Source of the DNA: a virus
Strand: one strand, 5' to 3'
Virus record (IMG/VR): IMGVR_UViG_3300009079_000114
Coordinates: 1 to 25,608 of that record
Length of the DNA stretch: 25,608 nucleotides
In this document: positions 2,684 to 6,829 of the stretch, piece by piece
Position numbering within the stretch: position 1 is the first letter of the stretch
How the letters are laid out: the number at the start of each line of letters is the position of its first letter
Notes under the pieces: model-generated
Told to the model about the DNA's origin: nothing
The model's database searches: none
Seen by the model: only the letters and a program-made list of their open reading frames with translations
Made by a program: the position numbers and the translations under genes

Positions 2684-3454
2684 ATGTATTCTACTGACCG
2701 AGATGAATTGATAGATTATTGCTTGAGGGCGTTAGGTCACCCTGTCGTTGAAATAAACATTGACGAAGAGCAATTAGACGATCGTATAGATGAAGCGTTA
2801 CAGTGGTTTCGTGAACATCATCCAGACGGATCTCGCCGTTACTATCTCAAACATAAACTAACCGCACAAGATATTGAAAACAAGTATATTGACTTTGCTG
2901 ATGATTTAGACTTGTCTGCAGTTGTGAGAATGTTACCTATGTCTTGGACTGCAACTCAGTCGGGTTGGTTTAGTGACGCATGGCAACTAGTCAAGTTTAC
3001 TGTCACCGACTTTACAAGTGGTGGTGGTTATATGGCAGACCTTGCGCACTACGAATCTATGCAACAACATCTGTCATTACTTGATATGAAACTAGTGGGC
3101 ACACCACAGATTACATTCGACAGACAATACAACCGTGTCAATCTACACATCTCAAAACACAACATGAAAGAAAACGATTATGTCGTTTTTGAGGTTTATG
3201 GTATTCGAAATCCAGACGACTCAGTAAATGAATATAACTCGCTCTGGAATCACAAGTTTGTGAAAGAATACTCAACTGCACTTATCAAAAGGCAGTGGGG
3301 ACTCAATCTTATTAAGTTTGACGGTATGGTACTGCCAGGCGGCACCACAGTCAACGCACGACAAATATATGAAGATGCGTTACAAGACATTGAACGTATT
3401 ATGACTAAATTTAGAGAAGAAGAGGACGAAGGTCCAATTTTCTTCATGGGGTAA
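2684..3454 (+). CDS. gp13: Neck protein gp13 (head completion)
   Basis: T4 gp13 and gp14 form the neck collar that closes the portal after packaging and receives the tail. This protein is 257 residues from the ATG at 2684. The N-terminal signature (RDELIDYCLRALGHPVVEIN, then a DDRIDEALQWFREHH segment) is characteristic of the gp13 family in marine T4-like phages. An in-frame TTG at 2672 would add four residues; I chose the ATG because it gives the usual family N-terminus and leaves room for a leader after the late promoter. The next gene, gp14, starts 3 nt after the stop. Identification rests on recalled family sequence plus the order gp13-gp14-gp15-gp16-gp17. Confidence 0.92.
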   Translation: MYSTDRDELIDYCLRALGHPVVEINIDEEQLDDRIDEALQWFREHHPDGSRRYYLKHKLTAQDIENKYIDFADDLDLSAVVRMLPMSWTATQSGWFSDAWQLVKFTVTDFTSGGGYMADLAHYESMQQHLSLLDMKLVGTPQITFDRQYNRVNLHISKHNMKENDYVVFEVYGIRNPDDSVNEYNSLWNHKFVKEYSTALIKRQWGLNLIKFDGMVLPGGTTVNARQIYEDALQDIERIMTKFREEEDEGPIFFMG

Positions 3455-3457
3455 GTT

Positions 3458-4342
3458 ATGGCTACTAACCCATATTTTTCACAGAAGTATCGCCCAGAAC
3501 AAGACCTGTATGAAGATCTGATCATTGAGTCAATCAAGATGTATGGTCAGGACATTTACTATCTGCCTCGCGAGATTGTAGAGTCAGAAGATATCTTTCT
3601 TGACAGCATCCAGTCTCAGTTCTCTGACGCCTACAAAGTAGAGGTGTACATCGAGAACACAGAAGGTTTCGAAGGCGAGGGGGATCTTTTCACTAAGTTC
3701 GGTATCGAATTACGAGATCAGGCAACGTTTGTTATCGCACGTCGTAGATGGAAACACTTGATCGGCGACAGACTTGATGCTGCGCAGTTTCGTCCACGTG
3801 AAGGCGACGTTATATACTTGCCGTTATCCGAATCATTATTCCAAGTTATGAAAGTAGAGACCGAGTCTCCTTTCTATCAGCTATCTCAACTACCTCTGTT
3901 TCGTATGCAATGCGAGTTGTTCGAGTTTTCAGACGAAGACTTCGATACTGGTATCCCTGGAATTGACAACGTTGAAGTTGAGGGTGCGTTCCAATACGAA
4001 CTCAAGATGCCAGACGAAGGCATGGGTCGTGAAATCCACTACCTTGTCGGAGAAAATGTTTATCAAGAGTTTGATGACTTCCGACTTGAGGGAGAAGTCA
4101 CTTCTTGGAATCACGACACACGTATTCTCAAGATTGCACACACAGGCGGTACAGATGGTAAGTATCACGAGTGGGCGACAAACACACCTGTTATTGGCGA
4201 GAACGCATCATTGACACCTATCTCTGAAGAAGAGGGAATCAACGAGATCGATCGTCTGTCACAGAAACCAATATTTGATGATTTCGCAAATGACTTTGTG
4301 GACTTCAGTGAGTCAAATCCGTTTGGAGATCTAATACCATGA
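3458..4342 (+). CDS. gp14: Neck protein gp14
   Basis: This 294-residue partner of gp13 in the neck collar is similar in length to T4 gp14 (256 aa). The start (NPYFSQKYRPEQDLYEDLI, then IKMYGQDIYYLPR) is the conserved N-terminal region of the gp14 family, which in marine phages runs 'E..LIIE.IKIYG.DVYYLPR'. A central region (FGIELRDQATFVIARRRW) is also family-typical. It ends with an ATGA overlap with gp15 (4339-4342), so the two are probably translationally coupled. Confidence 0.93.
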   Translation: MATNPYFSQKYRPEQDLYEDLIIESIKMYGQDIYYLPREIVESEDIFLDSIQSQFSDAYKVEVYIENTEGFEGEGDLFTKFGIELRDQATFVIARRRWKHLIGDRLDAAQFRPREGDVIYLPLSESLFQVMKVETESPFYQLSQLPLFRMQCELFEFSDEDFDTGIPGIDNVEVEGAFQYELKMPDEGMGREIHYLVGENVYQEFDDFRLEGEVTSWNHDTRILKIAHTGGTDGKYHEWATNTPVIGENASLTPISEEEGINEIDRLSQKPIFDDFANDFVDFSESNPFGDLIP

Positions 4343-6429
4343 TGGGCGGACACTTCTATCACAAACGAGTACGAACGTGCGTTGCGCTGTTTGGTTCTAT
4401 GTTTGATAACATCAATATACTAAGAACTGCGTCAAACGGCAAAGTATTGTCTCAAGTAAAGGTGCCGCTGTCATATGCACCCGCCAGATCGTTCATAGAG
4501 CGTCTAGAGGAGATGTCAAGCGGAGAAGAGACAGAACGTAGGGTCGCACTCAAACTCCCTAGGATGTCGTTTGAGATCGTCTCAATCGTATATGATCCAT
4601 CTCGACAACTCCCTAAGATCAATAGTTATGTTACTTCTAATAATAACTCTCAATTTCGTAGATATGTCGGCGTACCTTACACGATTAGTTTTGAACTTCA
4701 CATTTATGCGAAGTCACAAGACGACGCGCTACAAGTCGTAGAACAAGTCGTACCATACTTTGCGCCTCAATATACGTTGACAGTCAAACCATTTACAGAC
4801 GAACCTGATATCAAAGAGGACGTTCCTGTATCACTTGTTGGCGTCAATTTATCAGACGATTTTGAAGGTGCGATCGAACAGAGACGAACTATTATATACA
4901 CTCTATCGTTTGATATGAAGATGAACTTCTACGGTCCTACAGAGTCTGGTCCAGTTATTCGCGAAGTTAATACCAACCTGAATGTCATCGATGGCGATGT
5001 TGATCTATTAGGGTCTTTAATAACTACAACCCCAGACCCTATTGACGTGAGTCCGGATGATGATTACGGTTTCGAAACTACAATAACAGTCTTTGAACCC
5101 GAACCGCCACCAGAACCTGAACCAGAACCTGAACCAGAACCTGAGCCGGAACCTGAACCAGAACCTGAGCCGGAACCTGAGCCAGAACCAGAACCGACAT
5201 ACGATTATATCATCACTGGCGTAACAGACGATCCGACATCTATTGATTGGAGAACGCATTACGCACCGCCAGGATATGTTTGGACTCCAGACGTAGGTTT
5301 CACTACAGATGAACCATTGATGCACACTGACTGGATGTTCTTCGATGAGAATTCTCAGACATCTACTTTGGGTAGTGCGAATATCACCAATTTAGATATG
5401 TCCGAAGTCGTAACCGCAAGAGAGATGCTCAGAGGGTCAGACTTTGCATCTAACACGAGTGATATTACTGGGTGGGATGTTTCTAAAAATAGAGACTTCA
5501 CATCTATGTTCCGTGAAGCAGTATTCAATCAGGACATTAGTGGATGGACTATTTGTGCAGATAAAACTACACCTATCACTGACGTAGTTGCATCTTACTG
5601 GACGGACTCTGGTGTCACAATCAATCAAAACAGTTACTCAGACTTTGATTACGTGCATGATTGGGACGTTTACGCTCCGACAGGTGGTTACCCACTGAGC
5701 AGTGCTGGTGTCCACGGTGTAATTTTACAGACAATGTTTTATGCCAATGACTTCTTCAACCAACCTATTGGTAGTTGGGACACCTCAGCTGTATTCAGAT
5801 TTGATGGAACCTTCACCGAATCTTCATTCGATCAAGATCTAAGCGGATGGGACACTTCTCACGGAAGAACAATGGCAGATATGTTTGATGCATCTGATTT
5901 TACGGGTCAAGGTGTCGGTAGTTGGGATGTGTCTAATGTGATTAGTTTTTACGACACATTCAAAAATACTTATTTCAATGCCACAGTAACAAATTCAGAT
6001 ATTTCTAGTTGGAACACAGGAAGTGCTGTCAATATGTCAGGAATGTTTTCTGTTGCTGGTTCTGTATGGACTGGTGTTCCAGCTCCTTTCGGTGCAGATA
6101 TCGGTGGATGGGATGTTTCTAATGTCAAAGACATGTCAGAGATGTTTGAAGAGAATGAAGACTTTGACATCAACATCGGTGCGTGGGACGTATCTAACGT
6201 GGACACTATGAACGAAATGTTCCAAGACTGTCCTTCGTTCAGTAATGACGGAAGCGCAGACATCGCCAACTGGGACACATCTAGTGTAACAGATATGGGG
6301 GAGATGTTCGAGAACGCAACATCATTCAACCAAGATTTGAGTGGATGGGACGTGTCTAGTGTGACTTCATATGATCAGTTTGATAACGGTGCGTCGAGTT
6401 GGACGTTACCGAAACCCAACTTTATTTAA
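4339..6429 (+). CDS. gp15: Tail sheath stabiliser/terminator gp15 fused to DUF285 (BspA-like) repeats
   Basis: T4 gp15 is a 272-aa ring protein that caps the tail tube and sheath and joins the tail to the neck. Residues 1 to about 252 match that family: an FYHKRVRTCVALFG start, a VPLSYAPARSF segment, RMSFEIVSIVYDPSRQLPK, and FFAP-like PYFAPQYTLTVKP. Residues 253-286 are a pure Glu-Pro linker (5095-5196). Residues 290-690 hold about ten repeats built around GWDVS/SWDTS followed by a [DN]M..MF-type motif and FN.DLSGWDVS, the hallmark of DUF285, BspA-like surface repeats. The reading frame is continuous, so this is a true fusion. By inference the repeat region is displayed at the head-tail junction as an adhesin-like decoration. 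ATG codons at 4339 and 4342 are both possible starts. The fusion is directly visible; the role of the extension is not known. Confidence 0.93.
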   Translation: MMGGHFYHKRVRTCVALFGSMFDNINILRTASNGKVLSQVKVPLSYAPARSFIERLEEMSSGEETERRVALKLPRMSFEIVSIVYDPSRQLPKINSYVTSNNNSQFRRYVGVPYTISFELHIYAKSQDDALQVVEQVVPYFAPQYTLTVKPFTDEPDIKEDVPVSLVGVNLSDDFEGAIEQRRTIIYTLSFDMKMNFYGPTESGPVIREVNTNLNVIDGDVDLLGSLITTTPDPIDVSPDDDYGFETTITVFEPEPPPEPEPEPEPEPEPEPEPEPEPEPEPEPEPTYDYIITGVTDDPTSIDWRTHYAPPGYVWTPDVGFTTDEPLMHTDWMFFDENSQTSTLGSANITNLDMSEVVTAREMLRGSDFASNTSDITGWDVSKNRDFTSMFREAVFNQDISGWTICADKTTPITDVVASYWTDSGVTINQNSYSDFDYVHDWDVYAPTGGYPLSSAGVHGVILQTMFYANDFFNQPIGSWDTSAVFRFDGTFTESSFDQDLSGWDTSHGRTMADMFDASDFTGQGVGSWDVSNVISFYDTFKNTYFNATVTNSDISSWNTGSAVNMSGMFSVAGSVWTGVPAPFGADIGGWDVSNVKDMSEMFEENEDFDINIGAWDVSNVDTMNEMFQDCPSFSNDGSADIANWDTSSVTDMGEMFENATSFNQDLSGWDVSSVTSYDQFDNGASSWTLPKPNFI
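5095..5196 (+). repeat. Glu-Pro linker repeat (34 codons) inside gp15
   Basis: The gp15 gene here consists of alternating GAA/GAG and CCA/CCT/CCG/CCC codons. The protein reads EPEPPP followed by fourteen EP dipeptides. At the DNA level it is an imperfect 6-nt and 12-nt tandem array that varies only at third codon positions. Such (EP)n tracts are rigid, extended spacers, consistent with holding the C-terminal repeat domain away from the tail. Confidence 0.95.
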
Positions 6430-6445
6430 GACATAGATATACATT

Positions 6446-6829
6446 ATGAGAGATAATCGTAAGCCGCCTGGTCTTTTAAACGATGACCAGAAGAAAAACT
6501 TCGTGCACGAGCAGGACTATGAGTACTCTCGTGACACTTACTATGACCTAATTGAGAAAGGTCGTGAGTCACTAGAACTCATGATTGAAGTCGCACGGGA
6601 GAGTGAACACCCTCGTGCGTTTGAGGTTCTATCTGGTATGATTAAAGGTATTGCCGATGTCAACGATAAGTTGATGGATCTCAACAAGAAACAAAAAGAA
6701 CTTACGAAAGAAGACAAACCTGCCGAAGCAAAAACTACTAATAATAATCTATTTGTCGGGTCTACTACAGAATTGCAGCGTATGCTGTTGGGTGATGAGA
6801 AAGTTATAGACCAAGACGAAGATGAGTAG
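6446..6829 (+). CDS. gp16: Terminase small subunit gp16
   Basis: The small terminase recognises phage DNA and regulates the gp17 motor. This protein is 127 residues (T4 gp16 is 164). The core reads YDLIEKGRESLELMIEVARE followed by SEHPRAFEVLSGMIKGIADVNDKLMDL, a conserved two-helix hairpin typical of T4-like gp16, which assembles by coiled-coil packing. The C-terminus is charged and ends in DQDEDE. It lies 16 nt after gp15 and overlaps gp17 by 8 nt, so it is translationally coupled to the large subunit. Confidence 0.9.
   Translation: MRDNRKPPGLLNDDQKKNFVHEQDYEYSRDTYYDLIEKGRESLELMIEVARESEHPRAFEVLSGMIKGIADVNDKLMDLNKKQKELTKEDKPAEAKTTNNNLFVGSTTELQRMLLGDEKVIDQDEDE

Follow-up and report, generated by a model that had tools for sequence, protein, structure and literature searches.

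A T4-type tail terminator protein joined to an exchangeable DUF285-type repeat domain, possibly a neck-borne adhesin

Introduction

In phage T4, the tail terminator gp15 is a hexamer that caps the tail (PMC3004832) and touches gp14, on the neck, through residues 203-245 (PMC12270204). The whiskers of T4 (fibritin, gpwac) are likewise an accessory feature of the neck, although they are built as a trimeric fibre that is encoded by a gene of its own and attached through gp13, rather than as a domain of gp15. Optional binding domains on phage structural proteins are already known, in the form of Ig-like domains (PMC3185693), the carbohydrate-binding modules (CBMs) of the 936 lactococcal phages (PMC6669499) and the adhesins of gut phages (PMC13370021). 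The 936 phages offer the comparison of an optional binding module carried on a neck protein and present in only some relatives, but the carrier there is the neck passage protein of a siphophage with a BppA-type module, and neither a tail terminator nor a leucine-rich repeat is involved. The Ig-like domains of structural proteins and gut-phage adhesins are similarly modular, optional and displayed on the virion; they differ from the DUF285 domain described below in their fold and in their carrier proteins. In cyanophage A-1(L), a CBM carried by the neck fibre failed to bind the phage's own host (PMC10966104), which means that host recognition need not be the role of a binding domain on the neck.

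In the literature searched, the coverage of which was incomplete, no report was found of a tail terminator as the carrier of such a domain, of DUF285 on a tail terminator, or of a cassette of this kind moving between genomes. What purpose accessory domains on the neck serve is a question shared by whiskers, neck fibres and Ig-like domains.

Results

The fusion gene and its neighbours

The window, by which is meant the whole stretch of DNA analysed (25,608 nucleotides of an IMG/VR virus record), contains T4 neck and packaging genes of the expected kinds and in the expected order, gp13-gp14-gp15-gp16-gp17. The gp15 place is taken by a much longer gene, the ATG of which overlaps the 3' end of gp14, and which is followed by gp16 and then gp17. 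The features referred to in the text are as follows.

613-2586: gene for a 657-aa fibre- or decoration-like protein, directly preceding gp13 in the position of T4 wac (matches head decoration phrog_2647 weakly)
3458-4342, plus strand: gp14, head closure protein and expected contact partner of gp15 (Pfam PF11649, PHROG 460)
4339-6429, plus strand: gp15-DUF285 fusion gene, an open frame of 696 aa, also present in 13 further full-length contigs
4339-5073, plus strand: gp15 core (tail terminator, or tail sheath stabiliser), residues 1-245 (PF16724, PHROG 227, T4 gp15 in the PDB)
5074-5229, plus strand: linker, residues 246-297, read from the sequence; 27-52 residues across fused relatives and in frame throughout
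5095-5196, plus strand: Glu-Pro rod of 34 residues, residues 253-286, read from the sequence
5230-6426, plus strand: DUF285/BspA-type leucine-rich-repeat domain, the exchanged cassette, residues 298-696 (PF03382, identity island, domain model)
6415-6445, plus strand: 3' end of the cassette and spacer before gp16, persisting as a scar in phages that have lost the domain
6446-6829, plus strand: gp16, terminase small subunit, the next gene downstream (PHROG 445, E 4.8e-41)

The frame at 4339-6429 comprises 696 codons from an ATG start and has no internal stop (ORF analysis). Residues 5-241 match the Pfam family T4-gp15_tss (PF16724, E 6.8e-63, profile positions 1-232 of 245), the core also matches PHROG 227 (tail sheath stabilizer), and residues 2-241 align with residues 1-246 of T4 gp15 in a phmmer comparison with structures 4huh and 3j2m (E about 3e-24). 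Unlike T4 gp15, which ends at 272 aa, the window protein continues for about 450 further residues. Four stretches of DUF285 begin at about residue 298 (PF03382, E 1.9e-73, 244 bits against a cut-off of 25) and show the WDVS...MF...FNQDIS pattern of DUF285/BspA surface proteins; in contrast to those stand-alone proteins, the domain is here borne on a phage neck protein by way of the Glu-Pro rod. An earlier note, made from the sequence by itself, had named gp15, the Glu-Pro rod with its 34 residues, and some 400 residues of DUF285 repeats, all of which these matches bear out; its gp15 of about 252 residues is indeed full length, but homology stops at about residue 245, the free C-terminus of unfused relatives lying at 252-261 aa.

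Pfam returned for the fusion protein only gp15, DUF285 and a PARP match below the cut-off. No CBM was found in that search, and membership in the 936-type neck CBMs was accordingly rejected, the likeness being one of assumed role only. On the minus strand, a 102-aa frame rich in W, F and R (5017-5325) is the complement of the Glu-Pro rod and is taken as a chance frame.

Occurrence of the fusion

The earlier note had described an uninterrupted fusion to a core neck protein and had suggested a search for gp15 homologues with C-terminal extensions. A scan with the whole protein recovered the complete fusion in 13 further IMG/VR contigs (L001-L013) and a partial one, cut by the contig end, in L014-L019. 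L001, L002 and L018 are near copies of the window, perhaps from one population, and the remaining fused contigs are clearly different phages. Their linkers vary in length and sequence, from EPEPEP rods to 'FSPDGPRYIPEPPTVYSYSIEG' and 'FEPQPPEPPIVYTYSITG', with little EP repeat in L003 and L004, and are in frame in all. When gp15 patterns alone were used for scanning, 11 of the 80 best relatives were fused (10 complete, one ending in the EP rod), while the unfused gp15s among these 80 end at 252-268 aa. The fusion is absent from 2,210 annotated phage records with a recognisable gp15, in no single place of which was 80% of the fused protein covered, although such collections may omit the window's own record or near copies of it.

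The closest sequenced phage, C48C1 (OQ984149, Kyanoviridae, host not stated), can be aligned to 64% of the window at about 80% DNA identity. Its gp15 is 74% identical and its gene 91 encodes a DUF285 domain of this type with WTLPKPNF at its end, but in C48C1 gp15 ends at 258 aa and the DUF285 gene lies about 57 kb away behind a different N-terminal tag. A literature search on C48C1 found nothing. A search of C48C1 and two long fused contigs for photosystem reaction-centre genes was negative, so that a cyanobacterial host is not indicated, although such an absence carries little weight. The carriers of the fusion are T4-like bacterial viruses that are uncultured and probably marine. Fibritin_C was not found in C48C1 or the two long fused contigs, and the control genomes gave no match either. 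The product of 613-2586 resembles a 'structural protein' of C48C1.

Extensions of neck proteins exist elsewhere: gp15 of Campylobacter phage IBB_35 (L266:1507-2877) has 456 aa, with no match to DUF285 or any other Pfam family in its extension, and gp14 of Synechococcus phage ACG-2014f (L267:1-1465) has about 490 aa, with a long extension that likewise matches no Pfam family.

Exchange of the repeat domain between diverged phages

The window was compared pairwise at the DNA level with five contigs (L003, L004, L009, L010 and L011). Identity is mostly 55-80% in gp13, gp14 and gp15 (at most 92%, in gp14 of L011), climbs past the linker to values mostly of 95-100% over 5240-6430 (minimum 85%, in one 120-base block of L011), and is lower again beyond the stop codon, where gp16 and gp17 show about 70-95%. 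Synonymous sites are saturated in gp15, whereas dS in the domain is 0.09-0.15 from the window, so that the domain has a far more recent common ancestor than the gp15 to which it is attached. Pairwise dN/dS in the domain is mostly 0.12-0.26, which places it under purifying selection, and reaches 0.41 in one close pair. The simplest explanation of this identity island is recombination whose breakpoints lie in the linker and directly after the stop codon, and the repeat domain, judged from these alignments, is a recombining cassette, exchanged as one block among related viruses.

Repeated gain and loss

In a tree of the gp15 core, the fused proteins are split into four separate groups with unfused proteins around each of them. 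The well-supported branches force at least four changes; this is a quick tree with SH-aLRT support, from which gain and loss are not separable by themselves. Two kinds of scar are informative in this respect. In one contig represented by L027 and L182, and also in L211, the gene reads EPEPPPEPEPEP-NFI-stop, joining the rod to the final three residues of the domain. In L184, L185 and L188, the stop lies within the rod (FEPES-stop) and the 3' end of the cassette, CCCAACTTTATTTAAGACATAGATATACATT, is kept as non-coding remains. The scar is absent from the unfused relatives inspected outside the scarred groups. Since the two joins differ, at least two losses must have occurred, each of which left a complete gp15. 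Related viruses gain and lose the domain as one block, and loss leaves gp15 undamaged.

Free-standing relatives of the domain

A separate DUF285 gene directly follows gp15, 80-230 bases on, in L114, L115, L116, L118 and L119. The gp15 of this lineage is about 57% identical and ends at 234-236 aa, and the separate domain starts with YSITGVxxDPTS behind a short N-terminal piece, METKIHFKK... or MSKICIKK.... Where the contig continues (L114, L115 and L118), the next gene begins MAGVKITDL, and in L114 the gene after the separate DUF285 gene gives a tail-spike match. Of the free-standing relatives found, the L114 domain comes closest, with 56-61% identity, compared with 47-52% for gene 91 of C48C1. 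That gp15 and DUF285 are adjacent genes in one lineage and a single chain in the other favours a shared place of action, and fusion of neighbouring genes would be a natural origin of the gp15-DUF285 protein. A scan with the free-standing L114 protein added few relatives and found no intermediate between the separate and fused states. The number of repeats in genes of the L118 type varies greatly: L118 itself (2902-6372, directly after gp15) encodes 1157 aa with 12 DUF285 stretches, compared with 383-877 aa in relatives.

Predicted fold and variable loops

The earlier note had also proposed that the repeat domain be modelled separately. Modelled alone, with window and contig sequences as the only input, the domain forms a curved repeat solenoid of fair confidence (pLDDT 80.6, pTM 0.81), which aligns with leucine-rich-repeat chains (Z up to 16.4 and rmsd 3.6 over 290 residues, although high scores come readily to repeat proteins) and also with predicted BspA-like viral proteins. 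A Foldseek comparison of the model with the PDB gave weak matches only, and a PDB sequence search with the domain nothing useful. The predicted fold is that of a leucine-rich-repeat solenoid. A full-length AF2 model was discarded for its low confidence in the gp15 part.

Among the cassette alleles, 43 of 399 positions vary. As many as 38 of these lie before residue 575, and 16 fall within 46 residues of the loops that come after a repeat's MF (or ML/TF); the Fisher p of 2e-6 is descriptive only, the loops having been chosen after the alignment was viewed. Loop differences between alleles include residues 366-368, 393-395, 468-472 and 493-496. The differences between alleles cluster at one loop position of the early repeats, as would be expected if the solenoid bound through its first half and kept its second half constant, and the likely ligand site is the face formed by these variable loops.

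Discussion

Taken together, the window is read, with a confidence somewhat better than even, as encoding an exchangeable, adhesin-like leucine-rich-repeat arm, present in six copies per virion at the head-tail joint. The N-terminal third is an ordinary T4-type gp15, which would form the hexameric ring that closes the tail as in T4, and the hexamer of T4 is the basis for the number of copies. Because the end of T4 gp15 (residues 203-245) meets gp14, the domain should project from the head-tail joint, and because the linker starts at the match to T4 residue about 246, it should leave the ring at the surface of the neck, an exit point that depends on the alignment to T4. The gp15 C-terminus runs on through a proline-rich, stiff and variable spacer into the DUF285/BspA solenoid, and the Glu-Pro spacer may hold the domain off by up to about 10 nm (estimated as 34 residues of about 3 Å each). 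Domain family, exchangeability, loop variation and gene neighbours together suggest that the domain serves as an accessory binding module. Adhesion is its most likely function, with glycans or proteins as ligands, whether on the host surface, extracellular or associated with particles. The genomes compared show its cassette exchanged by homologous recombination, lost without damage to gp15, and encoded separately beside it. The earlier note had claimed a function in host contact; contact with the environment or the host is supported indirectly, by a domain that is modular, exchanged, dispensable, locally variable and, where free-standing, encoded beside a tail-spike-like gene, whereas direct contact with the host surface would be a more tentative part of that claim.

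The same location would suit a structural organiser, a domain that holds the long tail fibres or neck fibres of its own virion in a parked or stabilised state, in the manner of T4 whiskers (fibritin), since its place on the neck would coincide with the contact site of T4 fibritin, and the separate-gene form adjoins tail-spike-like genes. This role is rather unlikely, as close relatives with the same neck genes lack the domain or have lost it cleanly, and cassettes cross between strongly diverged neck genes, which is awkward for a part that fits its own fibres. In addition, the wac position is taken by another fibre- or decoration-like gene (613-2586), so that the suggestion in the earlier note of a replacement for whiskers is not upheld.

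A domain that is made with gp15 yet forms no part of the virion, being cleaved away at the linker or having an intracellular role (with a host protein as its target, for instance), is unlikely. A late structural protein in six copies is an odd carrier for an intracellular factor, and the free-standing relatives adjoin late neck and tail-spike-like genes; against this must be set a linker that is long, flexible in length and dispensable, and the frequent binding of proteins by leucine-rich repeats. The domain carries no export signal, and its removal by proteolysis in the linker could nevertheless occur.

Also unlikely is a nearly neutral passenger, in which a neighbouring gene became joined through loss of the gp15 stop codon and was tolerated. 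The clean losses and the neighbouring separate gene of the sister lineage would suit such an origin, but the dN/dS of the domain, frames that are open in every complete fused copy examined, and four fused lineages with spread between diverged phages speak against it. A chimeric assembly, or a frame error within the EP repeats, conceivable for a metagenomic contig with a segment that could break assemblies (the contig L018/L178 ends inside it), is rejected as a negligible prospect because the same in-frame fusion exists in 13 other contigs with several linker sequences, including those of L003 and L004.

Should the adhesin-like arm be real, a core assembly protein thought only to cap the tail also holds an exchangeable surface-binding domain, and the fused, separate-gene, never-fused and scarred-loss alleles of close relatives constitute a clean natural experiment on accessory domains of the neck. 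As a broader and tentative proposal, the tail terminator may be a reusable mounting ring, with T4-like phages sharing a pool of neck-mounted leucine-rich-repeat adhesin alleles that move from one diverged genome to another by recombination in the linker and behind the stop codon and that would serve adsorption or niche attachment independently of the tail fibres.

Domains of the same type also occur behind another N-terminal tag, MANQILAG...AGVDADxP, in C48C1, L117, L122 and L123. The long fused contigs (137 and 160 kb) contain similar tags without DUF285, one of them with an FG-GAP propeller, and their only DUF285 domain is the one borne on gp15. This tag and its variants precede varied domains, among them DUF285, an FG-GAP propeller and matches to virion structural or baseplate proteins (examples are L261:384-2967, L260:3522-3992, L122:1417-6110 and L117:1900-4206), and it may provide exchangeable surface domains with a shared anchor. 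Adjoining the tag genes, L261:3364-4611 encodes a protein with repeated ESVELDEA motifs, which might be prohead-protease sites.
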